40,452 bases of DNA, taken from IMG/VR virus record IMGVR_UViG_3300042691_013910, positions 1 to 40,452 of that record; one strand, 5' to 3'. A program made the position numbers and the translations under genes. This DNA is from a virus. The notes beneath the pieces were generated by a model. It was not told the DNA's origin. It saw only the letters and a list, made by a program, of their open reading frames with translations, and made no database searches. This document shows, in pieces, positions 2,396-40,452 of the stretch. Numbering within the stretch: position 1 is the stretch's first letter; each line of letters opens with the position of its first letter.

Positions 2396-2943
2396 TGAAT
2401 TTCCTTTGTTGATAGTGCGTACTGTTTAAATTGTGGGTCATTGACCAACTCATCGCTATTGACCTCTGTGCAGTCGATAGTGACTACTGCCCAGTTATAG
2501 CCAAAATGACCACGTGGCATAACGCGAGTTGGATTAAAGACGTTACCTCTATAAAGGATACGGTCTTTAATGTGTTTCTGAGGGCTTACCAACATTTCAG
2601 GTACAAGCCTTTGTACATCCCCTACGTTTAGAACAATGCGTAAAGTGTCGACTACGTAGAAGCCTCGTTCGTTCATTTCGTTTCCACCGCGAACTAATTG
2701 TGCGGTAACGCAAGGCATATTAAATGGAAGCATCCAACGACGGCCTTCCCCATTTGTTGAACTAGACACGTCATATATGTCGTCAACCATGGTCGGAACG
2801 TTTTCGTCAAGATAATATTCTTGCCATCTAAACCAGTCAACATCTACACCCACAGGATGCTGGACATCTTCTTTTATGCCTTCATACATTCGCTTCTGTT
2901 CAAAGTCCATGTTAAAACGGCCTTGCATCCTGCTGCCTCGCAT
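2392..2943 (-). CDS. Putative virion structural protein
   Basis: The ATG giving 183 residues is chosen because AAGGAG lies five bases upstream; the preceding in-frame TTG sits too close to it. The protein is rich in Asp, Met and Arg, with a beta-type middle (FYVVDTLRIVLNVGDVQRL) and a C-terminal YNWAVVTIDCTEV strand. There is no signal peptide or membrane segment. It lies between the glycosyltransferase and the tiny-gene chain and overlaps neighbours at both ends. Its size, composition and position near tail-completion genes fit a neck or tail-associated component, but no family is recognised. Confidence 0.65.
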   Translation of the reverse strand: MRGSRMQGRFNMDFEQKRMYEGIKEDVQHPVGVDVDWFRWQEYYLDENVPTMVDDIYDVSSSTNGEGRRWMLPFNMPCVTAQLVRGGNEMNERGFYVVDTLRIVLNVGDVQRLVPEMLVSPQKHIKDRILYRGNVFNPTRVMPRGHFGYNWAVVTIDCTEVNSDELVNDPQFKQYALSTKEIQ

Positions 2944-3992
2944 CAAGACTCCTTATAGAACTCTAAGTTCTTCTTTAGACGTTCGTCTGTAGGGTTAAGA
3001 TTAAGGGCTTCTTGACCAAACGTCAGTGCTTCCTCTTTGTAACCTAAGTTATGAGCAGCAATTGCTGCTAAGTCGTATGGAAATTCGCTCCAGGCTTTAG
3101 GGTCATTTAAGTATTGAAGTGGCTTCTCTTTAATATCTAATGCTCTAAGAACAGATGAGTAGCACTCCTTCCACATGTCGTTTTCATAATAATAATCTGC
3201 TAGGTCTACCCAAGGCTCCCTACCTTCTGGATATTCACGGGCTGCTTTCTTTAGCCATTCCTCACGTTCCTCTCCTTCAGAACATTTAGCAATGTACCTC
3301 ATAGAAGCAGCACGTTCTGGTTTCCACTTTGCTCTTGGCAATTCAAGATGGCGTTGCAGTTCTGCTTTTGCTTTGTCACACATGCCGTGAAAGAAGTATT
3401 CGCGTCCCAAGTAATGGGAGTTTCTGTCATCTTCAGGGTCCTCTTTAACAGCCATCTCTAACATTGGGAAATATTGTCCACGAGATTTTGAGTTATCTGG
3501 ATGATGATGAATTTCTAGCCCTATCCAATGCTGTACTTCGTCTATTAAATAAGAGTTTAGTACTTCATGAACAGGGTGTTTCCACCGATAATTTTTTCTA
3601 GAGTGGATTTTATCTCCACCATACACTAAGCCTTCAGACCCATCTGCGTTCCAAGACCATACGTATTTATAACGAGGGCGAGTAACTTCTTTAGAAACTT
3701 GCTCTAAATGCTGTCTCCATCCTGGAGCCAAAACTTCATCAACATCTAAAGCAATGCAATAATCTATGTCTTCTGGTAACGCTGCTAAAGAAGCATTTCG
3801 GGCATCGTCAAATCGCCAAGGTTTTACTCTAACGTCTACTACGTGGATACCTAATTCACGGGCTAATTCAACAGTTCCATCAGTTGACCCTGTATCAGCA
3901 ATAAGCAAAAAGTCTGCTTCTTTTGCTGACTCGTACCATCTGCGTACAAATTGATGCTCGTTTAAAGCGATGCTGTAGACCGCTATCTTCAT
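2943..3992 (-). CDS. GT2-family glycosyltransferase with helical-repeat tail
   Basis: The N-terminal 90 residues are a GT-A fold of family 2: VYSIALNE, a nucleotide-sugar binding segment ADTGSTDGT (33-40), and the metal-binding DxD motif within ALDVDE (81-86). The C-terminal half (about 170-345) is rich in paired helices resembling TPR-like repeats (HYLGREYFFHG, DLAAIAAHNLGYKEEALTFG). Related enzymes transfer sugars to protein, peptide or glycan acceptors. GGAG precedes the start. Its place beside the fibre genes suggests that it could glycosylate virion fibres, such as the Thr-rich collagen-like shafts, or modify host surface glycans to block superinfection; both are inferences. Length and motifs look intact. 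Confidence 0.9.
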   Translation of the reverse strand: MKIAVYSIALNEHQFVRRWYESAKEADFLLIADTGSTDGTVELARELGIHVVDVRVKPWRFDDARNASLAALPEDIDYCIALDVDEVLAPGWRQHLEQVSKEVTRPRYKYVWSWNADGSEGLVYGGDKIHSRKNYRWKHPVHEVLNSYLIDEVQHWIGLEIHHHPDNSKSRGQYFPMLEMAVKEDPEDDRNSHYLGREYFFHGMCDKAKAELQRHLELPRAKWKPERAASMRYIAKCSEGEEREEWLKKAAREYPEGREPWVDLADYYYENDMWKECYSSVLRALDIKEKPLQYLNDPKAWSEFPYDLAAIAAHNLGYKEEALTFGQEALNLNPTDERLKKNLEFYKES

Positions 3993-4009: not shown

Positions 4010-4819
4010 TTATAGTTTAGTTGCTGAGTTCCCCATATTTGGATGGATATTGCATGAGTAGTAAATAGGGGATGCTAGGTCATATTTAACTGTAAGGGTT
4101 ATACGGCGAACAGTCGCACCTGCAGTCCATGCAGCAGCGTATGTGTTATAGGTGTTGTAGTTAGTGCCATCAATGTTGTAAATAGCCCCATTTGCAGAAC
4201 TTAATGCACCGTTTGTATTGTCTTGAATGGTTGTTAAATAGAATGGGTGGTTATCAACAGTGTTGTCAGAAACATCAAAAACGTATGTCAGTCCTGGAAG
4301 TAACTTTAACTGTGGATTTTGAACACCATCAACAAAGTAATAGTTAGTACCAACTACAGACTGCACTGTAATTGTATGAGTTACAGTTGCAGCACCAGGA
4401 TTACCTGTAACTCCAATAACTCCTTGAGGTCCAGTAGGTCCAGTAGGTCCAGTTGAACCTGTAGGTCCTGTAGGTCCAGTCACATTTGAAGCAGCCCCTT
4501 GTGCACCTTGAGGTCCTGTCGGTCCTGTCGGTCCTGTCACGTTTGAGGCAGGTCCAGTAGGGCCTGTAACACCTTCTGGCCCTGTTGCACCTGTAGCACC
4601 TATAGAGCCAATTGGACCAGTTGGACCTGTAGGGCCTGTTGCTCCAGTTGGACCAGTAGGTCCGCCTGGGTCTCCTTGTGGTCCTGTAGCACCTGTTGGT
4701 CCTGTAGGACCACCAGATGGACCAGTAGGTCCAGTAGGTCCAGCAACACCTGCAGGTCCTTGTACACCTTCAGTTGCACTGACCCAAGCAGAGCCATTCC
4801 AATACTTTAATGTAGCCAT
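4010..4819 (-). CDS. Collagen-like tail fibre with C-terminal cupredoxin-like knob
   Basis: Residues 1-19 are a short cap ([10 protein letters not shown]). Residues about 20-143 are Gly-x-y repeats, mostly GPT, GAT and GPQ, with a breaker motif (ASNVTGP). The C-terminal 125 residues are a beta-rich domain containing [20 protein letters not shown] and [12 protein letters not shown]. The spacing His191 ... Cys256-x2-His259-x2-Met262 resembles type-1 copper ligands of cupredoxins, and the YVFDV...HPF pattern is typical of such domains in aquatic phage fibres. Collagen-like segments form trimeric shafts and the knob is likely the receptor-facing tip. The ATG overlaps the TAA of the upstream fibre gene (TAATG). 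Confidence 0.88.
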
Positions 4820-6147
4820 TAGGTCAACCTACTCCAATACGCATGAGTAATTCCGCTAAACGAGTTTCGTGTTGCAGGAAGGTCAGAGGTTGAGCCAGCA
4901 AATCCAACTACTCTTGGAGATAGAGCCATAATTGCAGTTGAAGCAGCACCAAACGAAACAGCAGCAAGTTGTGGGGTAGTTGAAGCCACTATTACAACTG
5001 CTACAGCATATCTATTTCCAGCAACTAAGTTGTAAGAGGTTGGGAATCCTCCTGTGCTATCTAAAGCACCTGTATACACTGTATTTGCAACTGTAAAGCG
5101 AGATGAGTCGTTATTTGTTCTTGCTACTAAAGTAGCGGTTGTACCATCAAAAGTATAAAGACCAAAACGTACAAGTGTGACACCAGATGCTGGTGTGCTT
5201 CCAGAAGAAAAAGAGATATTAGAAACAGTTAACGGTTCTGTTGGGGTAAAGAACGAGAAATAGGTAATGTTAGTTGTAATTGCAGTGCTTGCATTTACCT
5301 CAGTTCTAGTTGGGATGTCTAAAGAGGTTGTTGAGTTATGTTGAGAACCTCTAAAAAATGCTTGTGCAACAGAGGTATAAGCAGTTTCATCTGTGTCAAT
5401 CCACAACAACTCTGTATTAGTAGGAGCAGAGGCTTGTTGTGCTAAAGAAATTGGACCAGTTGGTCCAGTGACTCCTTGTGCACCAGTTGGACCAGTTGGA
5501 CCTGTAGGGCCTCCAGAAGGTCCAATAGGACCTTGTGGTCCCGTTGGGCCAGTTACTTCTGGGCCAGTTGGTCCTGTTGGACCAGTTGGTCCTGTTGGAC
5601 CAGTTGGTCCTGTAGGTCCTCCAGGTGTTCCAGCAGGTCCTTGAGTACCAGTTGGGCCAGTTACTCCTTGAGGTCCAGTTGGGCCAGAAGGTCCAGTTGG
5701 TCCAACGGTTATTGAATCAACCCATTGAAGCCCATTCCAAAACTCAATTGAGTTATCTGGTTTTATCCAAATGTCACCAATTTGAGGAAGAGAAGGCGCA
5801 TTTGATGAGTAAGTGACGTATTGGCGACCATCTACTTCATAAGCAGCATTAACTGAATAAGACAGGTTAGCAGCAGAACCAATAACTTGGATAGAGTCAC
5901 CAGTGTTTAAAGCAAATCTAAATGTTTCAAAAGACTGACCCGCACCTATGGCTAAGTCTTTTATTAAAGTAACAGCAGTCGAGTCAGTGTAAACGCCACC
6001 AACAGGCACTATGTATATGCTTGAAGTAACTGTTTGGTTGTTTTTATTAGCAACAATTACTGAAGCAACGTACCCTCTATTTACAGAGACTATAGTTGTA
6101 AGTTCATTTGCTAGAGGATTAGCAATCCCAAGTCTAGTTACTGGCAT
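4819..6147 (-). CDS. Collagen-like fibre with shared N-terminal domain and beta-rich C-terminal domain
   Basis: Residues 1-115 form a domain shared with the next gene (both have [12 protein letters not shown]-x-GDS), probably an attachment or trimerisation module. Residues about 118-148 read [10 protein letters not shown] and [10 protein letters not shown], a small cap common in fibre proteins. Collagen-like GPTGPTG repeats follow to about residue 235. The C-terminal 200 residues are Thr/Ser-rich beta sequence without a recognised fold ([11 protein letters not shown] ... AYWSRLT). A trimeric host-recognition fibre or accessory fibre is likely. It precedes the cupredoxin-tipped fibre by a stop-start overlap, so the two are expressed together. 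Confidence 0.88.
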
Positions 6148-12299: not shown

Positions 12300-14837
12300 T
12301 TACTTTACAAAGATGCCGTAGCCGACATCAATAATGTTAGAAGCGTTTACACGGTTACAAGAGGTGTTTGTCTGACCGCATGTTGTTGAAATTTGATTTT
12401 GACCCTGGTTGGTGTAGTTGTTTCCATTACCAGCACCATTTCCTTCACCGTAATATCCTGGAGTATCGCAGTATGGAGAGATTGGAGCCATCTTAAATCC
12501 GTTGTTCCAACCACCGTTTTGGTGTTCTCCACCAATACCGTTGAAAGTGTGTGGATAAGAAGAGTTTCCAGAACCTGCAGTTGTACCAATGTGGAAACGG
12601 TTGTATCCGTCTGATGAGTACCACTGACCAGCACCGTAGTTGCCTCGCATGTGAAGACCGTCGCCTGAGTTACGAGCGTCAATGAATCCATCACCACCAC
12701 GAGATTGTGAACGGCAAGAAGAGTTTGGAATACCAGAGTCACCGTTTTGTGCAGTACGAGAGTTAGCGATTGTGTTGTTAGTAGAGCCTTGAGTTGTCCA
12801 GTGCCATAATGAGTTGGTGTTTCTAACTCCAGAATTTAATTGATAGTGACCCCAACCACGCCAGGATGTTGTAGACACGTTGTGAAGCACAAAAAGAATG
12901 TCACTGACATTGTGATAACCCCATAAATGCGTTTTTGAGTTAACTGTAAGTCCTTGACCAGTGTTGAAAGAACCATCTCGTGTTGAATAAAGACTGTTGC
13001 CCCAAATAGGAGTTCCTGAAGGGAATCCAGTGTTGCTGTTTGCAATCATGTTCATTGCAAGCATCCAACCTCCACCAGCAACAGCAGAATCCATAATGCA
13101 ATAAACCTGTTGTGGTGCTGAGTAAGAGTCGGTTTTAATCCAATATAGCCCGTTGGTATTTGTACCAGTAAGCGTTTTAATTGCTGCTGCAGAAGTATTA
13201 GCAGAAGCCTCTGTAGAACCGTCTTTTAGACCGCCCTTTACAAGACCAATTTGAATATTGTTTCCATTAACTTGCTCTACGAAGTAATAGTTAACTGGCA
13301 CTGTTTCTGTTGTAGTTAAACGACCTCCAACTGGGTAGTCGTAACGGACCATATCTCCAGTAATAAAATTATGGTTTGGTACATGAATCCACTCTTTATC
13401 AGTTGAAACACCGATTTGTTGTACTTTATGCGTTCCAGAACCCTGGCTGCTAATGATGATGTCAGCACCACCTGGAGTTGCAGCAAGTTTAATTTGAATA
13501 AGACCAGGGACACCTTGAACAACTACGTTAGAGAAAGTACACCAGTAAGTAGCGTTGTTTGTTAAGCCTCCAGCAGCAGTTCCTGTGGTGGTGTACTTAA
13601 CCATAGAGCCAACTACTAGCCCTGTTGAAACAGTGGAACCTGCATCGTTTACAATCTGAATAATGGCAGAGCCATTAGAAAAAGAGTTAACCGTAGACAA
13701 AGACCCTGTGTTATTAGCACCATCAAATGTGAAAGGATTGTCATTAACAACCGTAATTGATGTTTGCTTTTGAGTGTCTAAGTTGTTTCCAGCAAAAGTC
13801 TTTGCTTGGTTTGCCAACTGAACTGTTCCAGTAATAGTTGCAACTATGTCGATAACTGACCCGCCAGGAATTGCACTTACTTTGAATGTGGAAGAAGATG
13901 ATGAAGAAGTTACTAATTCTTTTAAGTACACAATTCCACGAGGTGTTCCAGCAAAATAACCAGAAGAAGAGGTCACTACATAGTAGAGAGGGGTTCCTAT
14001 CAACTGACCAACAAAGTTTTCGCTTGAGTGAGTTACAGTGATTGTATCGTCACCAACGCTTGTAGAAACAATGTTGCTAACAACTCCGTTTAGTTGTGCT
14101 TCATTATCCAAGTCAATTGTGTAAGTAGTAAGAGTGTTTGAGCCATCAAAAGACTGTGCAGTTGCAGTGTTTGAAGCATCGAATGTTTTTGAACCAGTGT
14201 TTGAAGAATCAAACTCTTGTGAAATTGTAGAGTTTAGGTTCAAGAAGTAGAAAGGAGTATTAACGCCAAACCCATGAGGAGAGTCTGTTTTAATTGTAAG
14301 TGTAGACTGTCCTTGAGCATTTGTAATAATACCTTCAGAGTCAGCAATTTTAATCTGAGAACCCTGAAAGAACTGACCTGTAATAATTGAAGTGTAAAGG
14401 TCAACAATTGATGCTGTTGTTAACTGATTTTGTTTGCAAAGATAAGTAAAGGTTGTTGAGTCTGGAACTGAGTTAATGATGTAAGCACCGTCTGCAGTAA
14501 GAGACTTACTTCCAGTTACGTTCAAAGGAATACCAACAGCAAGTCCGTGAGGAAGCGATGTCGTTACCTTAATCTCACGAGAACCAGCAGTAGTAATTAC
14601 ATCTAAAAGGTTTGGAAGAGTTGTATCACCAGAAGCAGAGAAGAAGGAAGGGGTGTTGTTAATTAACTCAACTGTTTCCCATTTGGTTGGCTGAAGACCG
14701 TATTCAAAGTCTGTGTCAATGAGGTTTTGCGGTTCACTGACACGGATTTTTGTTACTGGGTCAATGAACTCCGCAGGGTAACGAATTTCCCCACTAAGGC
14801 CACCACTACTGGTGCTACCGCCTAGAAAACCTGGCAT
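12300..14837 (-). CDS. Adhesin with HGF-type repeats and C-terminal fibrinogen-like domain
   Basis: The 845-residue protein has N-terminal repeats related to those of the giant fibre (SPHGFGVNTPFYFLN, PNHNFITGDMVRYDYP). The C-terminal 285 residues start NGLYWIKTDSYSAPQQVYCI and continue GGGWMLAM. This is the signature of a fibrinogen-related domain, in which an N-terminal strand, a VYC-x-M turn and a GGGW motif are conserved. Such domains bind acetylated sugars or other glycans in animal lectins. Later segments are rich in Gly, Asn, Ser and Trp with several Cys (YCDTPGYYGEG, TTCGQTNTSC). A host-glycan-binding fibre tip is the natural interpretation. AAAGG precedes the start. Confidence 0.87.
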   Translation of the reverse strand: MPGFLGGSTSSGGLSGEIRYPAEFIDPVTKIRVSEPQNLIDTDFEYGLQPTKWETVELINNTPSFFSASGDTTLPNLLDVITTAGSREIKVTTSLPHGLAVGIPLNVTGSKSLTADGAYIINSVPDSTTFTYLCKQNQLTTASIVDLYTSIITGQFFQGSQIKIADSEGIITNAQGQSTLTIKTDSPHGFGVNTPFYFLNLNSTISQEFDSSNTGSKTFDASNTATAQSFDGSNTLTTYTIDLDNEAQLNGVVSNIVSTSVGDDTITVTHSSENFVGQLIGTPLYYVVTSSSGYFAGTPRGIVYLKELVTSSSSSSTFKVSAIPGGSVIDIVATITGTVQLANQAKTFAGNNLDTQKQTSITVVNDNPFTFDGANNTGSLSTVNSFSNGSAIIQIVNDAGSTVSTGLVVGSMVKYTTTGTAAGGLTNNATYWCTFSNVVVQGVPGLIQIKLAATPGGADIIISSQGSGTHKVQQIGVSTDKEWIHVPNHNFITGDMVRYDYPVGGRLTTTETVPVNYYFVEQVNGNNIQIGLVKGGLKDGSTEASANTSAAAIKTLTGTNTNGLYWIKTDSYSAPQQVYCIMDSAVAGGGWMLAMNMIANSNTGFPSGTPIWGNSLYSTRDGSFNTGQGLTVNSKTHLWGYHNVSDILFVLHNVSTTSWRGWGHYQLNSGVRNTNSLWHWTTQGSTNNTIANSRTAQNGDSGIPNSSCRSQSRGGDGFIDARNSGDGLHMRGNYGAGQWYSSDGYNRFHIGTTAGSGNSSYPHTFNGIGGEHQNGGWNNGFKMAPISPYCDTPGYYGEGNGAGNGNNYTNQGQNQISTTCGQTNTSCNRVNASNIIDVGYGIFVK

Positions 14838-14853: not shown

Positions 14854-16836
14854 TCATATTCCCAACCACCATGAAGTTGATATTGCAAGAGTGCCTACTG
14901 TGCCTTGCGGACCAGTAGGACCTTCATTTCCTGACGCAACTTCTATCCATGCACCTTGAAAGAATACATAAGTTTTTGCGTTTTGAGTGTTAAACCATCC
15001 GTCACCTGGTGATGATGTAGCAACATCTGGAGCAGTTGGACCAGTTGCAGTAAATTTACCGACAGGTCCTGTTGGGCCTGTTGGTCCTTGAGGACCTGTA
15101 GGGCCAGTTACGTTTGATTGTGGTCCAGTGGCTCCAGTGGGTCCAGTTGGACCTGTAGGTCCTGTTTCACCCTTTTTATCAAAGATTGCAATGACACCGA
15201 TTTGTGCTGCATCAGCAACGCTTTGATAAACAATATTTGCTGGGGCATTAAATGGAACAATGTAAGTGATAACTGTGTTTGTTGAAGCAGAGTATTTACC
15301 AAGTGCTGGGTCGTTGTTAGTTGTTCCAGGCACAGCACTGCCACTGTTGTTTTCAGTTAAACGAAGAGCAAACGGGTCACCAACAGGAACTTGGCTAACA
15401 TCAAAGTAATAAATTTCACCACGCACTAAAGTTAGTGTTGGGTTGTCTCCAGCAATACCTACGAAGTTATATGCTGTGTTACCAGGATTGTTAGTAACAA
15501 GGAAAGTTGTACCACCACGAGGACCGACTGGACCAGTAGGACCTGTCGCTCCAATAGCCCCTGTAGGACCAGTAGGACCAGTAAATTGACCAGCATCTTC
15601 CCAAGCGGTTCCATTCCAAATCCAAATGTGTCCGTCTGCAGTTACTACATAGGCATCACCTTCGGTGTTACTTAAAGTAGGCAACGCTCCTGTAGTGCTT
15701 ACTGCACCTTGCAAGTTAATGCTTGTACCAGCATCACCTTTAGCACCAGTAGGTCCTGTAGGTCCTTGTGGACCAGTTGGACCAGTGACAGTGCTGTCTG
15801 CACCAGTAGGTCCTGTAGGTCCTTGTGGACCAGTTGGTCCTGTAACAGTTGAGTCTGCACCAGTTGGTCCTGTAGGTCCTTGAACACCTTGTGGACCAGT
15901 TGGACCAGTTACATTAGAATCCGCACCAGTAGGTCCTGTTGGACCTTGGATACCTTGAGGACCAGTAACACCTTGAATATTACCTACATTTTGCCAACCA
16001 CCTGCACCACCATTTAACGACGGATTCCAAACACATAAGTCACCGTTTGCTAAAAGGTAAGAGTCACCGATTTGTCCTGTTGGTTGTGCAGTTTGTAGTG
16101 TTGCAAAATCTGCGTACTCACCTTTAATAACAGTTGCTGCACCAGCAGGGCCTGTAGGACCAGTTGGACCTTGTGCACCTGTAGGACCAGTTACGTTAGA
16201 AGCAGGGCCTGTAGCACCTGTAGGTCCTTGAACACCTGCTGGACCAGTAGGTCCAGTTACATCTGAAGCAGGGCCTGTAGCACCAGTAGGACCAGTTGGA
16301 CCTGCAACACCTTGAGGACCTGTTGCACCAGTTGGGCCAAGTTCACCTTGTGAACCAGTAGGGCCCGTTACATTTGAAGCAGCACCTTGTGGGCCTGTAG
16401 CACCAGTAGGACCAACAGGTCCTGTAGGACCAGTTGCACCATCGCTACCAATAAAACCAGCAGGACCAGTTGCACCTGTTGCACCAGCAGGACCAGTAGG
16501 GCCTGTTGCACCTAAATCACCTTGTGGACCCGTAGGACCAAGTGCACCTGTTTCACCAACAGGACCACGAGGACCAGTAGGGCCTTCTTCACCTTGAATA
16601 CCTTGTAAACCACGAGGACCTGTTGCACCTGTTGGTCCTGTTACTGCAGGACCTGTTGCACCTGTTGCACCTACAGGACCAGTTGCACCAGTTGCAGATG
16701 CAGAACCTGCAGGACCTGTTGCACCAGTAGGACCTGTTGCACCACGAGGACCAGTAGGACCACGTTGACCTGGAACACCAGGAAGTAACGATGGGTCAAT
16801 CTCTGGATACTTAGGGCTGTTCGGATTAATTGGCAT
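14854..16836 (-). CDS. Long collagen-like fibre with three globular inserts
   Basis: The 660-residue protein is mostly Gly-x-y triplets (GPTGPTG, GATGPTG). A globular insert near residues 235-290 reads [20 protein letters not shown] second near 370-415 reads [20 protein letters not shown] third near 440-555 ([14 protein letters not shown] ... [17 protein letters not shown] ... IVYQS) is a sister of the cupredoxin-like knob in the 269-residue fibre but lacks its Cys/His/Met. A cap ([20 protein letters not shown]) lies near the C-terminus. Together these suggest a trimeric beaded shaft. The ATG overlaps the TAA of the upstream connector gene. The low-complexity DNA is prone to length change by recombination or slippage. 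Confidence 0.88.
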
Positions 16837-29102: not shown

Positions 29103-29270
29103 TTAATCCTCTTCTTTGTTCCTCAAAGGGTAAGTAATTCCCCAAAGAACTATTGTTCCTACGGTTGCCCAGCCAACTACTGATTTTGCCGAGCCATCAA
29201 GCACCACCCAGGCAATAAACATGCCTAGTAGTGTCCAAGACTGTTCAATAAAGTCTCTTAATATTTTCAA
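29103..29270 (-). CDS. 55-residue two-helix membrane protein with TTG start
   Basis: Direct translation from TTG gives KILRDFIEQSWTLLGMFIAW, a second hydrophobic segment (VVGWATVGTIVLWGITYPL), and a polar end (RNKEED). The TTG overlaps the TGA of the 920-residue gene, and TTAGGAG lies upstream at usable spacing, so re-initiation is likely. It has the size and shape of a small holin or antiholin and precedes the other holin candidate. The function is inferred from topology and context. Its shortness and non-ATG start make it easy to miss. Confidence 0.65.
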   Translation of the reverse strand: MKILRDFIEQSWTLLGMFIAWVVLDGSAKSVVGWATVGTIVLWGITYPLRNKEED

Positions 29271-32029
29271 GGCTTACGTCTCCTAACGCCTTTAAGTTCG
29301 CCAGTGGGCCCACCACCGCCACCTGAGTTACCCCCACCTGAAGGTGCAGATGGAGCACTACCACCAGTTGCAAGTCCGACTGCATTTAGTGCTGCACCAG
29401 TTGCGACAACGGTTGCGACGACCATCTTCTCGGCTTCTTCACGTTCTTCTGGCGACATATCTGCACCGATACTTCCAAGTGCAAGGAGAACTTGACCTGG
29501 GTCTTCAAATACTGCGCCTAATAGTTCTGCGGGATTTTGTAACACTTCTAATGCTGCAGCAACTTCAGCAGTAATTATGACAGCATTTCCATTTTCGTCA
29601 GTACGAACATCTACAGGTGTAGCAGGTGGTAAATCTTCGTATGTAATTCCCGCTTCTTTAATTGCTTCAGATGAAAGTGCTTCACCTGGTGCTAACGAAG
29701 ATACAAGAGCCTCTGCTACAACAGCCTTTTCTTCAGCCGTTAACTTTCCGTCTGACAATGCTTCACTTATTACAGTTTCGGGTGTAGGCTCTGGTTCAGG
29801 TTCAACGTTAGGAGTATCTTGTGTTTCTTCCGACTGATTTTCTTGCTGTGGGTTGTCTGTTTCTGGCTCTGTTGATTCTTCAGGTTGGGGTTCGGGAGAA
29901 GACTCGTCAGTTTCGTCGTTTTCTTCAGGGGTTGTGGGCTCTGTCTCTGGCTCTTCTGGGGTTGATGGCTCTTCTGAGTCTGTAGGTTCTTCTGATGGTT
30001 GTTCTTCAGGTGTTTGATTTGAGTCAGAAGGCTCTTCTTCATTATCGGAGGGTGAGTCCTCAGGTTGCTCAGGTTGCTCAGGCTCTGGCTCTGTCTCAGG
30101 GTCGTCAACAGGTGGCTCTTCAGGATTTGGTTCAGGCTCAGGCTGAGGTTCAGGAGTAACAGGTGTCGGAGTTGGTTCTGGGGTTGGTTCTGGGTTTGGT
30201 GTTGGGGTTGGCTCTGGCTGTGGTTCTGGGGCTGGTTGTGGGGATGGCTCTGGTACGGGCGTGGGAGCAGGATTGGGCTGAGAGGCTTGGGATTGCTGAA
30301 CAGAAGCAATTACGGCAATGGCTGAAGACACTGTGGAAGTAGCCTCACTAGCCTTTTGAACTGCTGTGTTTGCTGCTGCATCTGCTGCTGCTAAAGCGGT
30401 AGTTGCATTTGTTTCTGCAGTTACTTGTGCTGCTTGAGCAGTTGTAAGAGTTTCTTGTTCTGTTGTAAGAGTTGCTTGTTCTGTTGTAAGGGTTGTTTGA
30501 GCGGTTGTTAGGTTTGTCTCCGCAGTTGTTTTTGCTTCTGTAAGAGTTGTTAATACCGCAGTCTCTGTAGCAACAACCTCTGTTTGGGCTGCTATCTGTG
30601 CAGTTAAGGTTTCATTAGTTACGTTTGTCATCGGTTGGACTGCTTCACCAGCAGCCTCACGCACACCAATGCGAGGTCCGTTGTAAAGGTTGGTTGTATT
30701 CCCAGAAACACTTCCAACACCTGCCCATTCCCCAGTTGTAGGGTTAACAGTCATTGTCCAGTTAACGTTTGTAATAGGGCCGTTGTTGTCCCCAAATCGG
30801 TGTAAATCCCAATCTACGGCTAAAGTTGTTTCGGTTGTAGTTACGGTAATAGAAGCACCTGGACCAGCACTCATAAAATCAGAGGCGTAAACAGAGATAT
30901 GAGCACCTGCTGGGAAATCCCACCAGTTATAGTCACCAGTACCAAAAGTAATAGTTGCTTTTGAAGTTACGTAGATTTGGCTATTAGTGCCTTGTCCTTC
31001 ATAAACGGTATCGCCCATTTTAATGTCAAAAGGCGTTTGTATTTTGGTTGCTGCATCCCACATGGCAGGAAGAGTTGTTGTAGTGACTGTTGGAGTCTCT
31101 GGAGCAACAGGTGCTACATACCCTTCGGTAGTGTAGGTCTTGGTATCTGAAGGCGTATTTTGGAGAGTAGTTAGTTCGTTTGTTTCTTGAGTAACCACGG
31201 TTTGTTGAGCCTGAACAGCAGTGGTGGCTTGTTGAACATCTTCTTGACGAGCAGCAACTTCAGCAGTCGCTGTAATTACTACGGCTGTTTGAGTGTCTAC
31301 TGCGTTTTGAGCAGTGGCTGTTGTTGCAGCAGCAGTCTCTGCAATTGCTACAGCAACAACGGCTGAATCAGAAGCAGCAACGGCTGCCACAATTGCTGTT
31401 TGAGCCTCTTCAATTCTTGCTTGAGCATTTGTAACTGCGGTTACGACAGTCGTATCTGAAGATACTGGTGTTGGAAGATTAGTTGTGGCACTATTTAAGT
31501 CTTGTTGAGCCTGTGTTGTTGTTACATTTGCGGACTCGATTTTGTTATTAACGGAGGTGACTGATGGACTTTCAGAACTGGCAGGAGTGGGCGTGGACTC
31601 TGTTGTGCTTGGGGACGGGGATTGTTCTGGGGACGGTGTGGACACGGGAGCCGTTGAAGTCGCAGGTGAAGGTTCTGCAGTCACTGTTGGCTCAGGAGCG
31701 GGTGAAGAACTTGGAGTTGGCTCAGGAGTTGAAGTGGTCGAAGGCGAAGGTGATGGCTCAAGAGTCTGACCTTGACCGCTTGAATTCGAAGTGGTTGTGG
31801 AAGGAGTAGGCGATGGAGCAGATGTTGTGGTTTCTGTTTGGCTTGGGATTGGGGTTGGCTCTGGACTGGGTGTTGGTGAAGGCGATGCTTCGCCCTGTGA
31901 AGTCTCGCCTTGATTACTTGGAGGCGGAGTTGTCGACTCTTCGGCGTAAGTAGTCTCTGTTCGCATAATCGTGTAAACGAAAGCAAGTAAGAGAACAGCA
32001 AAAAATTGTTTAATTGCTTTCGGTAGCAA
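29267..32029 (-). CDS. Exported 920-residue Pro/Thr/Glu-rich surface protein
   Basis: The TTG start follows an in-frame TAA directly and yields a good signal peptide: LPKAIKQFFAVLLLAFVYTI, then TTYA/EE as the cleavage site. Next come Ser/Thr/Pro repeats (to about 155), an Ala/Thr/Val-rich heptad region (160-300), and a compact beta-type domain (about 320-470; ITFGTGDYNWWDFPAGAHIS, VDWDLHRFGDNNGPITNVNW). A second Thr/Ala/Glu coil follows, then a long Pro-Glu-rich stretch. A C-terminal domain begins ALSDGKLTAEEKAVVAEALV; after it come a hydrophobic helix, a Gly run and RRRKP, resembling a membrane-anchor tail without LPxTG. The plan is that of a cell-surface protein, unusual in a phage lysis region. 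Confidence 0.8.
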   Translation of the reverse strand: MLPKAIKQFFAVLLLAFVYTIMRTETTYAEESTTPPPSNQGETSQGEASPSPTPSPEPTPIPSQTETTTSAPSPTPSTTTSNSSGQGQTLEPSPSPSTTSTPEPTPSSSPAPEPTVTAEPSPATSTAPVSTPSPEQSPSPSTTESTPTPASSESPSVTSVNNKIESANVTTTQAQQDLNSATTNLPTPVSSDTTVVTAVTNAQARIEEAQTAIVAAVAASDSAVVAVAIAETAAATTATAQNAVDTQTAVVITATAEVAARQEDVQQATTAVQAQQTVVTQETNELTTLQNTPSDTKTYTTEGYVAPVAPETPTVTTTTLPAMWDAATKIQTPFDIKMGDTVYEGQGTNSQIYVTSKATITFGTGDYNWWDFPAGAHISVYASDFMSAGPGASITVTTTETTLAVDWDLHRFGDNNGPITNVNWTMTVNPTTGEWAGVGSVSGNTTNLYNGPRIGVREAAGEAVQPMTNVTNETLTAQIAAQTEVVATETAVLTTLTEAKTTAETNLTTAQTTLTTEQATLTTEQETLTTAQAAQVTAETNATTALAAADAAANTAVQKASEATSTVSSAIAVIASVQQSQASQPNPAPTPVPEPSPQPAPEPQPEPTPTPNPEPTPEPTPTPVTPEPQPEPEPNPEEPPVDDPETEPEPEQPEQPEDSPSDNEEEPSDSNQTPEEQPSEEPTDSEEPSTPEEPETEPTTPEENDETDESSPEPQPEESTEPETDNPQQENQSEETQDTPNVEPEPEPTPETVISEALSDGKLTAEEKAVVAEALVSSLAPGEALSSEAIKEAGITYEDLPPATPVDVRTDENGNAVIITAEVAAALEVLQNPAELLGAVFEDPGQVLLALGSIGADMSPEEREEAEKMVVATVVATGAALNAVGLATGGSAPSAPSGGGNSGGGGGPTGELKGVRRRKP

Positions 32030-34654: not shown

Positions 34655-34802
34655 TTTCGAATGACTCCTTAATCGCTAATCGTCGTGCTGTACTTTTATC
34701 TCTCATCCGATTTGTGCGACGGTCATTAAATACTACGGTTTTTTGATTCAGTTTGTAATTACCTGGAGCACCTTTGCCCAAGGACTTGTCTTTCTTAGGC
34801 AC
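34641..34802 (-). CDS. Small basic protein, GTG start
   Basis: The GTG overlaps the TAA of the upstream gene by eight bases and gives 53 residues; a TTG at 34829 would extend it into that gene. The product reads PKKDKSLGKGAPGNYKLNQK, VVFNDRRTNRMRDKSTARRL and a charged end. It is strongly basic, without Cys. No family is recognised. The layout (GTG, Lys-rich start, overlap with upstream stop) parallels the DUF6321-like gene. It is coupled to the lipoprotein gene. Confidence 0.6.
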   Translation of the reverse strand: MPKKDKSLGKGAPGNYKLNQKTVVFNDRRTNRMRDKSTARRLAIKESFESEKR

Positions 34803-35151
34803 TTGGCTTTGGTCCAGTGTCTTTAACAACAGGACGACCAGATGCTTCTGCTCCTCTGCGTGTGTAGGTTTGGTGCTTTGATGTTGATGTCGAATACTTA
34901 ACGTCTGGGATTACCCAACCGTGTGTAGGACTGTGTACACCAATCGGTGTTTGATAAGACATAACAACATAATCAGCGTCGTGTACGTTCTTAAACACAT
35001 TGCCAGCAGCAGAGCCTTCACGTGCTCTACCAAATAGCAGGTGGTCACCAGGACCAGTGTGTCCTCGTGCAGAGATAGCACCGTGACTTACAAACGCTTC
35101 ACGGCGTGAGATTTTTTCGATTGCTTCGGTTGCATTAACTCTTTTAGCCAT
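34795..35151 (-). CDS. Hypothetical protein from a leaderless promoter
   Basis: The ATG giving 118 residues (MAKRVNATEAIEKISRREAF) is chosen because TATTCT lies exactly six bases upstream and no ribosome-binding site exists; a TTG two codons earlier is unlikely. The middle reads SHGAISARGHTGPGDHLLFG and VFKNVHDADYVVMSYQTPIG. The end is basic and polar. There is no membrane segment. The His/Gly-rich middle has the look of a small beta-fold enzyme or binding domain but matches no family I can name. Confidence 0.7.
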   Translation of the reverse strand: MAKRVNATEAIEKISRREAFVSHGAISARGHTGPGDHLLFGRAREGSAAGNVFKNVHDADYVVMSYQTPIGVHSPTHGWVIPDVKYSTSTSKHQTYTRRGAEASGRPVVKDTGPKPSA

Positions 35152-35157
35152 GGTCAA

Positions 35158-35169: not shown

Positions 35170-35715
35170 TTATGCGTACTTGTACTGCTCTTTCTTAGAA
35201 AAAGGTCCAGAAGTCCAAGCATCTTGAGATTCGGCTATCTTCATAGCCTTCAAAGGGGCTGCACCAGCCAATATAGCCCCGACAGCATACTTTGCACCAT
35301 TCCCTACACCATAGATGCCATCGGCTCTTATACCGACCGACAGGTCGTCTTCAACGGCAAATAGCGTTCCACCTACAGCAAGTAAAAACTGGAAACGGTA
35401 TTCGCCATCAGAACTCTCTTCTTTGAAGTCAAAGCCGTTATCAGTCAGACATTGACGGAGAGAAGGCACTGCTTTTGCAATCATGAAGTGATAGAGGTCT
35501 TTAATGTCTCTTTCAGTAGGAGAAGGAGGATTCCAGATGTGCTGTGCTACATCGCAAGGAAACGCTTCACCTGCACCAGCAATTAAAAAATCCCCACGTC
35601 TAGAAACTTTAGACATTTGGGGATGATGAAACTTGCGTCCTTGACCATCTGTTGTTTGATTATCGCAGTAGATAACGCATTTATCTTTCTGCTGGATTCC
35701 AATAATCGTCGTCAC
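35170..35715 (-). CDS. HslV/proteasome-like Ntn hydrolase
   Basis: The GTG start has AAGGA six bases upstream. After removal of the initiator residue the protein begins TTIIGIQQKDKCVIYCDNQT, which aligns position by position with HslV (TTIV...GDGQ-T). Thr1 is the nucleophile, Asp17 is in the same place, and Lys35 (PQMSKVSR) matches the HslV Lys33 after a two-residue insertion. Later features are FLIAGAGEA and GIRADGIYGVGNGAKYAVGA, matching the glycine-rich strand-loop-helix of the beta-type fold. The 181-residue length is that of HslV. A peptidase or amidohydrolase active on host or phage protein is inferred. No HslU-like ATPase gene is nearby. Confidence 0.8.
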   Translation of the reverse strand: MTTIIGIQQKDKCVIYCDNQTTDGQGRKFHHPQMSKVSRRGDFLIAGAGEAFPCDVAQHIWNPPSPTERDIKDLYHFMIAKAVPSLRQCLTDNGFDFKEESSDGEYRFQFLLAVGGTLFAVEDDLSVGIRADGIYGVGNGAKYAVGAILAGAAPLKAMKIAESQDAWTSGPFSKKEQYKYA

Positions 35716-35727
35716 AGTAGGTCCTTA

Positions 35728-35777: not shown

Positions 35778-36065
35778 CTACTTAGGGTCTCTGTATGTAA
35801 AAGACCCGTAGAAACGGGCTGGTTTGCCCTTATCGTCCGTTTCTGGCCCTGCTACTAACTTCACACTCTTACGAGGTGTCTTTGCTGCTGCCTGGGCTTT
35901 GAGCCACTTCTTAGAGGCAGAGGCGTTCTTCCAAGCGGTAACTGAGACGGTCTCGTTATCGTCTTGGTCGTTCTTAATGATTGTTGTGGCTAACCAACCG
36001 CCACCCTTCTCCTTGTTAAGAACTGTTTTTGCTTCAAACGTGAAGACTTTTCTTGGCACGTTCAT
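35778..36065 (-). CDS. Small basic protein, unknown
   Basis: The ATG giving 95 residues has AAGGAG directly adjacent, too close to use well; a GTG two codons later (36059) has ideal six-base spacing and may be the true start (93 residues). The protein reads VPRKVFTFEAKTVLNKEKGG, LATTIIKNDQDDNETVSVTA, then a basic helix (ASKKWLKAQAAAKTPRKSVK) and FYGSFTYRDPK. No family is recognised. The beta-helix-beta impression and high Lys suggest a nucleic-acid binding or structural protein. A hairpin follows its stop. Confidence 0.65.
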   Translation of the reverse strand: MNVPRKVFTFEAKTVLNKEKGGGWLATTIIKNDQDDNETVSVTAWKNASASKKWLKAQAAAKTPRKSVKLVAGPETDDKGKPARFYGSFTYRDPK

Positions 36066-36128: not shown

Positions 36129-36326
36129 ATGGAAGGTTTAGACGGCATCGATTTTCGTGGGATACCAACTCACGAGTGCCCTGTCTGCGGAAGCACCACA
36201 TTTAGCGTTGCAGCAGGGTTTGCTGACTACAACATCGCTTGGTGGGGCACAGACGCTTCGTGTTACGAATGTGGGGCAAAAGTTACGGTTCCTTGCCCAG
36301 TAGATGACCCTAACCGTTCTGAATAG
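36129..36326 (+). CDS. Isolated plus-strand Zn-ribbon protein
   Basis: The 65-residue protein reads IPTHECPVCGSTTFSVAAGF, YNIAWWGTDASCYECGAKVT and VPCPVDDP. The CPVCG ... CYECG pairs form a zinc ribbon, and the closing PCPVDDP is one I recall from small aquatic-phage proteins. It lies between leftward genes, is transcribed the opposite way, and has no ribosome-binding site but a -10 six bases before its ATG. Its 3' end converges with and overlaps the GT25 gene by 17 bases. A regulator or RNA-polymerase partner is possible; function is unknown. Confidence 0.8.
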   Translation: MEGLDGIDFRGIPTHECPVCGSTTFSVAAGFADYNIAWWGTDASCYECGAKVTVPCPVDDPNRSE

Positions 36327-36930
36327 TCGTATCGAACCCGCCGATGTTGCAATACATCGGAACACCTGGCTTTAGAGTGTAAACATCCCAGTCACGTGTC
36401 ATTCCTCTTTTGAGGATGTACCAATCGACTGCTTCATCAATTGGATAAAGGGCTACTGCCTCAAGTAAACGCTCCGCACCTTTTTTTGAAACCCAGAAGC
36501 ATGCGTTGGACCAGACCTGATAGGACCTGCATATCTGTGTATCACCGATGTCGTAACTCTTCTTGTAGTTATTTGCGCCTTGCCATGGATGAACGTATTG
36601 GTAGAAGAAATCCCAGAACATAGGAAGTCTGTCTAAGTACTGCTTGGTCTTCTCTAAAAACCCAGAGTCGAAGGTGATGTCATCTTCAAGTATCAACAAT
36701 GCGTCGTAGTCGGATTCGATAAACGCATTAAGCGCAACGAAGGTGGAGTGCCATAAGCCAACTTCACCTGGTTTGAATTGTTTTGAAAAATACAGTGGGC
36801 AGGATTCTGTACTGTTTTTAGTTGGGGAACCAAGGTTTGGAAGTTCTAAAGAAGAGTGGATTGCTTTAGCGTTCTCGTCACGTTCGTGAGATACACCGTC
36901 TATGTGAAAGAGTTGGTAGGCCAGATTCAT
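36310..36930 (-). CDS. GT25-family glycosyltransferase
   Basis: The 206-residue protein has the GT25 signature: FKPGEVGLWHSTFVALNAFI (about 52-71) followed by YDALLILEDDITFDSGFLEK (75-94). Here LEDD (81-84) is the metal/nucleotide-sugar motif and GE-x-G-x-x-x-S/H the acceptor-side motif. This family includes LPS galactosyltransferases and collagen hydroxylysine galactosyltransferases. Later WSNACFWVSKKGAERLLEA and YPIDEAVDWYI fit the conserved C-terminal half. The start has a -10 TAGACT six bases upstream and no ribosome-binding site. Targets could be host surface glycans or the phage's collagen-like fibres; both are inferences. Confidence 0.88.
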   Translation of the reverse strand: MNLAYQLFHIDGVSHERDENAKAIHSSLELPNLGSPTKNSTESCPLYFSKQFKPGEVGLWHSTFVALNAFIESDYDALLILEDDITFDSGFLEKTKQYLDRLPMFWDFFYQYVHPWQGANNYKKSYDIGDTQICRSYQVWSNACFWVSKKGAERLLEAVALYPIDEAVDWYILKRGMTRDWDVYTLKPGVPMYCNIGGFDTTIQNG

Positions 36931-37065: not shown

Positions 37066-37278
37066 CTAAGAGTTCCAGAGTTCGTCCTCAATGCGAAGGA
37101 TTTCTTCTAACTCCTCAGCACTTGGCTGCATAATAAAGGGAGGCTTCTTGGCCTTCAATCGCTTCTCGTAGTAATCCTTAGGTGGGTTCTCGTGGAAGTC
37201 GTTGAGATGCTTTTGCTTCTTAACTGCAGACATCTTTTGCTGATGCTGAGAAACATCGAACTGCTTGGTCTTAATCAT
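37066..37278 (-). CDS. Small basic protein coupled to speD
   Basis: The 70-residue protein reads IKTKQFDVSQHQQKMSAVKK, then LNDFHENPPKDYYEKRLKAK and an acidic helix at the end (SAEELEEILRIEDELWN). It has a basic N-terminal two-thirds and an acidic tail. Its ATG overlaps the TGA of speD (ATGA), so it is translationally coupled. No family is recognised. It could act with SpeD, for example as a small regulator, but there is no direct evidence. Confidence 0.65.
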   Translation of the reverse strand: MIKTKQFDVSQHQQKMSAVKKQKHLNDFHENPPKDYYEKRLKAKKPPFIMQPSAEELEEILRIEDELWNS

Positions 37279-37751
37279 TGAACTACGAAACCATTCTCTC
37301 TATCTAGGTGTAGGTAGTCCAAATCTACAACCTGGAAGGTCTCGTTGAAAAGAGCCAGCACTTGGTCAACATCTAAAGAACCACAGGTGTACAGGTCGAA
37401 CTGAACTAGAGCAGGGTCCTTCTCATCCCAGATGTGGAAGGCGATGTGGCTGGTCTCAATCATTACGATTGCAGTTAGACCACGGTTACCTGGCTTATCT
37501 ACATAACTGGCAAACGGCCCCTTGATAATCTTCATATCGATGTTCTCAACTAAACGCTTCAAGAAGCCGATGGCCTCTTCCTCGGACCGCATCGGGGAGG
37601 TTACTTTGGCATTAATCAACAAATGCTTATGAAGTATGGGCTTCACCTCGCCACGCTCGCAGGTACATCCACCACAGCCACAGGACTGCTCTTTTGCTAA
37701 AGGGAGTTCATTCATCTTGTTCATCCTTGCTAGTATCTTGGGATTCATCAT
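37275..37751 (-). CDS. speD: S-adenosylmethionine decarboxylase, phage type
   Basis: The enzyme makes decarboxylated SAM for spermidine synthesis. The domain begins HKHLLINAK (41-49) and contains DMKIIKGPFASYV, GNRGLTAIVMIETSHIAFHI and FDLYTCGSLDVDQ. Ser101 in ETSHIAFH is the expected pyruvoyl-forming cleavage residue. His106 and Cys123 match the catalytic His and Cys of the bacterial enzyme, so it looks active. The text closely recalls cyanophage SpeD. The N-terminal 40 residues are unusual: SCGCGGCTCERG has Cys at 24, 26, 29 and 31, an apparent metal-binding extension. The start has TAGCCT six bases upstream and no ribosome-binding site. Confidence 0.9.
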   Translation of the reverse strand: MMNPKILARMNKMNELPLAKEQSCGCGGCTCERGEVKPILHKHLLINAKVTSPMRSEEEAIGFLKRLVENIDMKIIKGPFASYVDKPGNRGLTAIVMIETSHIAFHIWDEKDPALVQFDLYTCGSLDVDQVLALFNETFQVVDLDYLHLDRENGFVVQ

Positions 37752-38302: not shown

Positions 38303-38308
38303 CCCCGC

Positions 38309-38314
38309 AATTTA
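38309..38314 (-). promoter_or_regulatory. TAAATT -10 element of the first leftward gene
   Basis: TAAATT, then GCGGGG, then GTG. The 12-base word TAGGCAGTAGCC lies 11 bases further upstream, over the -35 region. It is probably the start of leftward transcription from the divergence region. Confidence 0.6.
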
Positions 38315-38489
38315 TCACTACTTTCGGCTACTGCCTAGGATTCAAACCTTCAACCGTGTCTTACATCTGGCGGTGGGTTTTACAGCGATTTTCTAAGGGT
38401 GGGGGGCTATCAGCGTTGTTCTTTAGCAATCTGTTTATGAAACAACTTGTATGTGTTCTATCTATGTTTATTTATTATTGTTATTAGTG

Positions 38490-38513
38490 CGTTGATAGCA
38501 ACGTTGATAGCAA
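38490..38513. repeat. Tandem 12-bp repeat CGTTGATAGCAA
   Basis: CGTTGATAGCAA occurs twice head to tail. A related inverted word (GCTATCAGCG) lies about 80 bases to the left. The arrangement is iteron-like and could bind a replication or regulatory protein. Confidence 0.75.
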
Positions 38514-38696
38514 GCATTGGCTACTGTGTTTTTTATTCATGTTGTTGTGTGACTACCACCAGACCTACAAGCATTGTCCGTCACTATTATCAGATAGTTA
38601 TTTAGTTATGTATCTACCAATCGTCATTACTAAACGCATACAACAATCATTGTTTATTACTACGTAATCTCTTTACTAATCGCTATGCGAAAGCAT

Positions 38697-38730
38697 GTAT
38701 CTATCTCTTATCTATCTATCTTCTATCTAT
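38697..38730. repeat. TATC/TCTA tetranucleotide-rich tract
   Basis: The stretch consists of imperfect TATC/TCTA repeats and leads directly into the 19-base palindrome. It is a low-complexity, easily melted tract, not a CRISPR. Confidence 0.8.
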
Positions 38731-38747
38731 TGTTATTCAATAACAAT
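38729..38747. repeat. 19-bp perfect palindrome
   Basis: ATTGTTATT-C-AATAACAAT is a perfect inverted repeat with a one-base centre. It has the form of a dimeric operator or an origin palindrome rather than a stable RNA hairpin. Confidence 0.75.
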
Positions 38748-38754
38748 CTGACGT

Positions 38755-38773
38755 TCCCCGATTATTTTTTCGT
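38755..38773. repeat. CCCCGA-N6-TTTCGT word, copy 1
   Basis: TCCCCGATTATTTTTTCGT shares both ends and length with a second copy at 39015-39033, while the middle six bases differ. Conserved arms with variable centres suggest a protein-binding site. Confidence 0.6.
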
Positions 38774-39014
38774 AGGGTCGTGCGTTACGAGATGTACGTG
38801 TAATAGATACTTGACGTTGTTGTTGATTATGTTATGAATAAACTTCTTTAGAGTTATTTACTACCAAGATGTCTAGTGTCCAGAACCGAGATGCTGTCGT
38901 GACAATAACTACGCTAAATAACTTTCTAAATAACTTTCAATCTTCTATTACTAACTAAATAAACTTCTTATTGTTATCTCTTTACACTTTTACAATCAAC
39001 GCCGTATTTAGTTA

Positions 39015-39033
39015 TCCCCGAAAACTTTTTCGT
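39015..39033. repeat. CCCCGA-N6-TTTCGT word, copy 2
   Basis: TCCCCGAAAACTTTTTCGT matches copy 1 at both ends. This copy contains the palindrome CGAAAA-CT-TTTTCG. Confidence 0.6.
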
Positions 39034-39138
39034 TGAACCCTTTACAAAACAATCGCCAACAGGGAGTACGTATAAATGAACGCGAAAACTCTCTCTATTT
39101 ACGCGTAAGACACGCGAGTTGCGTGGGGGTGGGGGGTC

Positions 39139-39252
39139 GTGTATTCTTCACCTCAGGTAGTTAGCCCAACGGAAGTTGTTGAGGCAGGTAAGAAGAAAAC
39201 TTCTATTGACGTTACTCAAAAAAGTTTTCACGCAATCGTGTGTAAGTCGTGA
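39139..39252 (+). CDS. Weak candidate 37-residue protein
   Basis: A GTG-started frame reads YSSPQVVSPTEVVEAGKKKT and ends with FHAIVCKS. A G-rich run (TGGGGGTGGGGGGTC) precedes it and could act as a ribosome-binding site but is not typical. The end of the frame is the 5' copy of the 21-base direct repeat, whose other copy is non-coding. It may be a chance frame in the control region or a short leader. Confidence 0.25.
   Translation: MYSSPQVVSPTEVVEAGKKKTSIDVTQKSFHAIVCKS
39230..39250 (+). repeat. 21-bp direct repeat, copy 1
   Basis: The copy includes CGCAATCGTGTGTAAGTCGT and recurs exactly at 39400-39420, 170 bases away. Flanking bases differ, so this is a discrete conserved element. Confidence 0.85.
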
Positions 39253-39399
39253 AACTAAAATCGTGTAACTAACTTCTTTAGATGATGAACTTACTAAATC
39301 GAAACTTGTAATCAACAACAACTTTCTTGTCTAACTACTTGTTGAGTAACAACAACAACTTGTTACTGATACTCACAACAACAATCGCACTTCCGCGTT

Positions 39400-39420
39400 A
39401 CGCAATCGTGTGTAAGTCGT
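39400..39420 (+). repeat. 21-bp direct repeat, copy 2
   Basis: This is an exact copy of the element at 39230-39250. Here it is flanked by CGCGTT and AACGC, which extend a local inverted symmetry (GCGTTACG/CGTAACGC). Confidence 0.85.
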
Positions 39421-39584
39421 AACGCAATAACGTCGCACTTGTTGTTATCTCTTCTGTATCACAATCAAACTTCTTTACAACTAAATACGCATGGTCGGTG
39501 ATAAGTAACTACCAACTACTTGTCACCTTCCATGTGTAGTTAGCAACAACAACTACACAATCCAACTACGAAGGGAAAACGTAA

Positions 39585-39854
39585 ATGGCTCAAACAAAAC
39601 AACGTCTAACAAAACAACAACGCAACTACAACGCGAACTACGACATGATTGAAAACGTTGTCGCAGTATTTCGCAAAACAGATAACGTTGAACGACTTGT
39701 AAATGTTCTCGCAACTGAACTCGACAATGGTGCGTTCCGTTATTTATTCGCAACAGAGTTCGCAAACGTTCCACTAACTATTCGATACGTTGATAACACC
39801 GACAACGAAACTTCTTTAGAAACAACAACTACAACCGAAGGGAATAACAACTAA
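39585..39854 (+). CDS. First gene of the rightward operon, Asn/Gln/Thr-rich
   Basis: The 89-residue protein reads AQTKQRLTKQQRNYNANYDM, then a helical, folded-looking centre (NVERLVNVLATELDNGAFRY) and an acidic Thr/Asn tail (ETTTTTEGNNN). CGAAGGGAAAA lies before the ATG. No family is recognised. It begins the rightward operon after the repeat-rich region, so an early or replication-related role is possible by position. Its TAA overlaps the next ATG (TAATG). The composition is clearly unlike the leftward genes. Confidence 0.8.
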   Translation: MAQTKQRLTKQQRNYNANYDMIENVVAVFRKTDNVERLVNVLATELDNGAFRYLFATEFANVPLTIRYVDNTDNETSLETTTTTEGNNN

Positions 39855-39997
39855 TGACTCTTGACGAGTTCAAGAAACACGTTACACAACAACGCAACGC
39901 ACAATCACAAAACGCAATCAACGCGTTCGCACTAATCGCAAACGCAACAATCAACAACAACAACAACAACGCAACAACAATCGAAGGGGCTAAGTAA
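39854..39997 (+). CDS. 47-residue Asn/Ala-rich protein
   Basis: Direct translation gives TLDEFKKHVTQQRNAQSQNA, a short hydrophobic stretch (FALIANATI), a run of six Asn, and TTIEGAK. The ATG overlaps the upstream TAA, and CGAAGGGA lies upstream. The Asn run is encoded by an AAC repeat. It is probably a small helical protein with a flexible tail, of unknown function. Coupling and the shared ribosome-binding motif support it. Confidence 0.65.
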   Translation: MTLDEFKKHVTQQRNAQSQNAINAFALIANATINNNNNNATTIEGAK

Positions 39998-40000
39998 CTT

Positions 40001-40452
40001 ATGTATTCAATCCTCACAACAACTCAAACACCACAACTCAATCACTTGCGACAGTTCGTTGTTGTCGCAGTATCTTCAACTGATGTTCGTGTATGGACAC
40101 GTGTTACTAACGGCGGTCGCGGTGAAAGTAATGCGTGGCAGGATAGTTCGTACAACGACTTCCAAAACAACTCTTACGGCAACGAACCTATTGTCGGTGA
40201 GTTACTTTCATCTCCGTTATCTTCCGTTGATGTTGAGGCAATCAACAACAACGAACGACCAACTATCTTGTTTCAGAAACTAACAAAACAGTTCGGTCTC
40301 CGACACAAAACAATCGGCTCACGTCTCTTTGATGATGTTGCTTTAGAAGTTACACAACTCATCACACAATCACCTAACGCGTTATCGAAGTATCGTTCTG
40401 ACGGACGTATTGACAAGAACGCAACTATCGGTGCGACAACAACAACTACCAA
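40001..40452 (+). CDS. Partial protein running off the right edge
   Basis: The frame starts at ATG, has CGAAGGGG eleven bases upstream, and stays open to the last base (150 residues seen). It reads YSILTTTQTPQLNHLRQFVV, then VAVSSTDVRVWTRVTNGGRG, ESNAWQDSSYNDF and FQKLTKQFGLRHKTIGSRLF. The alternating hydrophobic start suggests a beta-rich domain; the later part is helical. No family can be assigned from the fragment. It lies three bases after the previous stop, so it is in the same operon. Confidence 0.75.
   Translation, partial: MYSILTTTQTPQLNHLRQFVVVAVSSTDVRVWTRVTNGGRGESNAWQDSSYNDFQNNSYGNEPIVGELLSSPLSSVDVEAINNNERPTILFQKLTKQFGLRHKTIGSRLFDDVALEVTQLITQSPNALSKYRSDGRIDKNATIGATTTTT

Follow-up and report, generated by a model that had tools for sequence, protein, structure and literature searches.

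The IMG/VR virus record IMGVR_UViG_3300042691_013910, whose 40,452 nucleotides were analysed as a whole (hereafter, the window), carries at positions 35170-35715 of the minus strand a gene for a group I proteasome/HslV-like N-terminal threonine hydrolase. By profile similarity, predicted fold and catalytic residues, the encoded protein belongs to the proteasome-like (20S/HslV/BPH) superfamily of Ntn hydrolases. We give a probability of about 55% to the reading that it is a BPH-like, ATP-independent and self-compartmentalising threonine protease removing unfolded or selected proteins during infection, for which we infer the assembly of the ring, its activity and its substrate. The novelty that the original prediction saw in a phage-borne proteasome homologue has to be given up, with relatives already described (PMC8665760) and present in about 200 phage records. 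What is new here is a large and conserved actinophage branch, together with a chaperone neighbourhood in two of its clades, not in the window's own lineage.

The gene and its active site

The reading frame starts with a GTG codon at 35715 and encodes 181 amino acids, with a Shine-Dalgarno-like AAGGA (35722-35726, minus strand), as read from the sequence, 6 nt 5' of the start. Its assignment draws on the ORF itself, a PHROG match, alignments, dN/dS and the predicted fold, and the protein can be followed through the landmarks MTTIIGIQQKDKCVIYCDNQTTDG, SKV, LIAGAGEA and DGIYGVGNGAKYAVGA, in this order. Values of dN/dS between the window gene and members of its lineage range from 0.04 to 0.11, and the gene is real and under purifying selection. 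The start codon, either ATG, GTG or TTG, is found at the same point in all but one of 68 distinct relatives, the sole exception being a gene (L021, 5001-5549) with an ATT start and no ATG, GTG or TTG upstream, where TTI still comes next. Moreover, a threonine immediately follows the initiator in all 68 of them. The entire open frame around the window gene comprises just 184 amino acids, so a propeptide is impossible for this protein.

Thr1, Asp17 and Lys35, the equivalent of Lys33, correspond to residues 2, 18 and 36 when the initiator is counted, and are encoded on the minus strand by codons at 35710-35712 (ACG), 35662-35664 and 35608-35610 (AAA), respectively. The lysine is displaced by two extra residues, as the original prediction had correctly noted when placing Thr2, Asp18, Lys36 and the late DGIYGVGNGAKYAVGA motif, all of which we confirmed in the sequence. 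The three catalytic residues do not vary among the 69 distinct proteins from the window and IMG/VR, nor among the 38 rows of a wider set with identities down to ~25%, which covers phages of Arthrobacter, Microbacterium, Psychrobacter, Moorella, Geobacillus and Vibrio, T5-like phages, and rhizobial and Streptomyces plasmid sequences. In this way, the conservation of Thr2 and Asp18 among homologues, on which the original prediction was to be judged, turned out to be complete in both sets.

The G47-A48-G49 stretch (35569-35577, minus strand) aligns in the close set with the oxyanion-hole glycine of the proteasome (Gly47), and its two glycines, numbered with the initiator, are kept in 69 of 69 sequences. 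At the position of proteasome Ser129, the alignments place Asn139 (35299-35301, minus strand), a residue that varies among the 69 close sequences (45 Asn, 20 Ser, 4 Ala) and is replaced by Ser, Thr or Cys in outgroups, with Ser in most of the actinophage ones. According to our reading of the close alignment, a nearly invariant Asp165-x-x-Thr168 occurs where the proteasome has Asp166 and Ser169. Finally, the predicted structure and the homologue alignment locate an acidic loop at residues 93-107 (35395-35439, minus strand), connecting helix 2 to the strand that follows, which is the position of the pore loop in BPH; 69 of 75 homologues have a net negative charge in this segment.

Family and predicted fold

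The window protein matched the PHROG_1040 family, annotated as 'peptidase HslV family', with an E-value of 2.9e-22. When searched as a single sequence it stayed under the Pfam Proteasome cut-off, and a single-sequence phmmer match to UvrA was a chance hit, as resolved by the profile search. A 41-row profile compared with the PDB recovered BPH (2.5e-12), HslV (3.9e-12) and 20S beta subunits (~1e-6 or weaker); the match to the actinobacterial 20S beta spans residues 2-50 only and is weaker than those to BPH and HslV. AlphaFold, run with a 32-row alignment, predicted a proteasome-type alpha-beta-beta-alpha fold with a beta core and helix pairs (pLDDT 93.8, pTM 0.89, every residue at 70 or above), and a 17-row alignment gave a consistent model. 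In Foldseek searches with the predicted model, BPH came first (5ovs/5ovt, TM up to 0.74), followed by HslV and then 20S beta, together with many predicted phage proteins sharing the fold.

Altogether, the PHROG_1040 match, the profile, the predicted fold and the invariance of the site in 69/69 and 38/38 sequences bear out the proposal of a proteasome/HslV-type Ntn hydrolase with an intact Thr/Asp/Lys site, and the structural check suggested with it found, in AlphaFold and Foldseek, the alpha-beta-beta-alpha proteasome fold. HslV membership in the strict sense does not survive: the protein scores 14-15 bits against equivalog cut-offs of 157.75 and 137 (TIGR03692 / NF003964), thus missing them by more than 120 bits, no HslU gene was found in 20 related contigs, and its nearest solved relative is BPH.

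A maximum-likelihood tree placed the window protein in an actinophage group with IMG/VR contigs and the phages Hum25, Pumpernickel, LeeroyJenkins and DSL-LC01. A second branch, separated from this group at 100/100 support, contains rhizobial and Streptomyces plasmid genes, D'Alembert, and Moorella, Geobacillus, Vibrio and T5-like phages, a taxonomic spread as reported for AAH. BPH and HslV attach on the window's side of the tree through long branches.

Host and other features of the record

The terminase is 54% identical to that of Streptomyces phage BRock and its kin, and the actinobacterial factor WhiB is present at 70 of 84 related loci and on three longer contigs from the window lineage. 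Because of the terminase similarity and WhiB, we regard these phages as actinophages, in agreement with the actinobacterial host originally proposed, and they would come mostly from freshwater-type metagenomes. A scan of genome contigs for the protease gave one MAG contig only (L032), assigned to a cyanobacterium (MAG bin-073). It also carries WhiB, GroES and thioredoxin, and we therefore take it for a probably mis-binned actinophage contig.

At 40 kb, the record probably covers only part of the phage genome. Its last ~2 kb (38303-40452) hold short ORFs only, on both strands, and form a divergent and variable end. Elsewhere in the window, two minus-strand genes (4010-6147 and 14854-16836) encode collagen-like proteins with GPTGPTGP repeats, which are probably tail fibres, and a third one (12300-14837, minus strand) an 845-aa protein of the tail region, whose C-terminal half looks fibrinogen-like by eye (GLYWIKTDSYSAPQQVYCIMDSAVAGGGWMLAMN) and had no Pfam match. 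A 920-aa ORF (29267-32029, minus strand), kept in several contigs of the lineage, combines an N-terminal hydrophobic segment resembling a signal peptide with long repeats rich in Pro, Thr, Ser and Glu. Glycosyltransferase genes of family 2 and family 25 occur at 2943-3992 and 36310-36930 (minus strand), and a gene for S-adenosylmethionine decarboxylase (SpeD) with a Cys-rich N-terminal segment at 37275-37751 (minus strand).

Genomic neighbourhood

The genes flanking the protease on its own strand, encoding 120 aa downstream (34795-35157) and 95 aa upstream (35778-36065), are conserved in the window lineage only (8 and 7 of 12 contigs, respectively). A more recurrent neighbour is a divergent gene (36129-36326, plus strand) for a 65-aa zinc-ribbon-like protein of the CxxC...CxxC type, found 0.6 kb upstream in 12 of 12 lineage contigs and close to the protease in many others. 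The same gene is also found in phages lacking the protease, and we do not claim it as a dedicated adaptor; a tblastn search of phages with this protein gave no match.

A different panorama is offered by two sister clades. In clade c (~41-47% identical to the window protein), 46 loci have a thioredoxin gene ~0.3 kb upstream and GroES within ~2.6 kb. GroES stands on the upstream side in the majority of members and on the downstream side in the rest; since the side differs, the linkage with GroES has survived rearrangement. In a closer clade (53-58% identity), five of six tested contigs encode Hsp20 ~2 kb downstream of the protease, and the sixth has it at a distance of 33 kb. Neither GroES nor Hsp20 was found in five contigs of the window lineage, one of them of 99.8 kb. 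Outside these clades, an annotated chaperonin gene lies 5 kb from the homologue of Psychrobacter phage D'Alembert (PMC9331655), and the R. etli homologue is preceded by Hsp20 ~1.6 kb upstream. Each clade amounts to one synteny block, so the linkage with chaperones represents few independent events. As a separate observation, thymidylate synthase or DHFR genes adjoin the family gene, or lie within about two genes of it, in Microbacterium phage Pumpernickel, T5-like phages and Geobacillus phage E3 (L027, L163, L166, L168).

Possible function

From the shared fold, the Thr1 site and the net-negative loop at the pore position, a BPH-like and ATP-independent chamber is therefore the most likely form of the protein. 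Judging from the Met-Thr start, the host methionine aminopeptidase would remove the initiator, leaving Thr1 as the nucleophile, presumably activated by Lys35 (the Lys33 equivalent) and Asp17. The subunits would then close into a double ring like those of BPH and HslV, with the active sites inside, which would most likely act without ATP, like BPH with its similar acidic pore loop and no known unfoldase. While the cell is infected, the substrates would be polypeptides unfolded fully or in part, or else a single host or phage protein. Such a protease would be part of a proteostasis kit of the phage's own, which in the two sister clades includes neighbouring genes for GroES, thioredoxin and/or Hsp20. 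What speaks against this reading is the Asn at the Ser129 position, the inactivity of purified BPH itself in the standard assays used (PMC5777263), and the lack of GroES and Hsp20 in the five tested contigs of the window lineage. A more speculative extension, which we put forward tentatively, is that the actinophage branch constitutes a distinct and unnamed group I subfamily, forming an ATP-independent chamber fed by the phage chaperones (GroES, Hsp20, thioredoxin). A chaperone-supplied chamber of this kind would be a viral proteostasis module acting on host proteins or misfolded phage proteins during infection.

HslV and the 20S relatives operate with AAA+ partners, and the phage ring might likewise be an ATP-dependent core that docks on a host unfoldase (ClpX, Mpa/ARC) or on a MoxR-like AAA_5 protein, redirecting host protein degradation. 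Three contigs of the window lineage do encode such an AAA_5 ATPase on the divergent strand, 5-8 kb from the protease and just past the window's right end, which offers a weak lead to a partner. This protein is however MoxR-like, outside the unfoldase families known to work with proteasomes, and its gene is not adjacent to the protease. The absence of a nearby HslU that had been remarked from the window now extends to 20 related contigs of up to 112 kb, which may be incomplete and contain no HslU/ClpX-type AAA_2 gene, whereas 14 of 14 control genomes were positive. Together with the report that the new proteasome homologues have no co-occurring AAA+ interactor (PMC8665760), these data make an ATP-dependent core unlikely. 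We find it rather improbable, too, that the protein works outside any degradation chamber as a highly specific hydrolase or ligase for one host or phage protein. Connectase shows that the family can turn into specific ligases (PMC8665760), but the predicted model lacks the connectase-type insertion and retains the compact arrangement of group I, including the two helix pairs.

A role as head or scaffold maturation protease could be imagined from the order of the structural genes, in which a single unassigned ORF of 267 aa stands between the portal and major capsid genes of the window and no protease was recognised there, and from the lack of any S78 match in the window lineage. The family gene is nonetheless distant from the capsid genes, is also present on rhizobial and Streptomyces plasmids, and in six of nine long clade c contigs coexists with a separate S78 match, because of which a maturation role looks very unlikely. 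The LeeroyJenkins protease, seven genes upstream of the terminase, represents a single position, and we did not count it as support. As for the idea, also put forward originally, that the protein is a decoy for the host 20S proteasome or replaces one of its subunits, the host is actinobacterial and many actinobacteria have a 20S proteasome. Against this idea, the protein is closest to BPH and HslV, with a weak and N-terminal match to the actinobacterial beta subunit, limited to residues 2-50. Moreover, its catalytic residues are intact under strong selection, which does not fit a decoy, and the family extends to phages whose hosts lack a 20S proteasome, such as Escherichia and Salmonella. We consider this last explanation extremely improbable.

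Comparison with known systems

The phage families PPH, AAH and CPH (group I) were described by Fuchs, Alva and Lupas in 2021 (PMC8665760), when genomic context gave no hint of the function of phage homologues and no Actinobacteria-specific phage with an AAH had been found. GenBank has since come to include actinophage isolates that carry members of the wider family, and the homologue of Citromicrobium phage RXM has been called BPH (PMC8953757). A large actinophage branch, deeply conserved and with an invariant site, and with chaperone neighbours in two clades, offers a concrete hypothesis for why phages carry proteasome homologues. Since relatives are also found in T5-like coliphages that grow on E. 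coli K-12 (e.g., IrmaTschudi bas28_0066), this hypothesis is open to experiments with a common laboratory host.

Like PPH, AAH and CPH (the cyanobacterial proteasome homologue), the window protein is phage-encoded, compact and HslV/BPH-like, with a Thr1 nucleophile and no known partner. PPH by definition has ~140 aa and lacks H2 (PMC8665760), whereas the 181-aa window protein has a predicted helix at the H2 position (residues 74-92) and is therefore not a PPH as defined. The window group falls in the tree outside the branch of rhizobial, Streptomyces and T5-phage sequences, which resembles AAH in its taxonomic spread, and may itself belong to AAH, to CPH or to an unnamed family. PHROG_1040 and the actinophage 'protease' genes of Arthrobacter phages Hum25 and Pitbull, Microbacterium phages Pumpernickel and LeeroyJenkins, and phage DSL-LC01 represent the same phage protein family as the window gene, all with Thr1/Asp17/Lys33, although they share ~25-31% identity with the window protein and have other gene neighbourhoods. 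With HslV (ClpQ, the peptidase of HslVU), the protein has in common the fold, the N-terminal TTI, Asp17, Lys33 and the late glycine-rich motif, and differs in its ~15 bits against cut-offs of 137-158, the lack of HslU and the two extra residues before the lysine.

BPH, the betaproteobacterial proteasome homologue (PDB 5ovs/5ovt/5ovu), is the nearest solved structure by both profile and fold. It assembles into tetradecameric double rings, with seven subunits per ring and an acidic loop at the pore. Its Thr1 binds epoxomicin, no unfoldase is known for it, and the purified enzyme was inactive in the standard assays used (PMC5777263). Unlike BPH, the window protein is phage-borne, has Asn at the Ser129 position and is known here from its sequence and a predicted model, with ~20% identity between the two; both, however, share Thr1/Asp17/Lys33, the absence of a propeptide and of a known AAA+ partner, and an acidic loop at the position of the pore.
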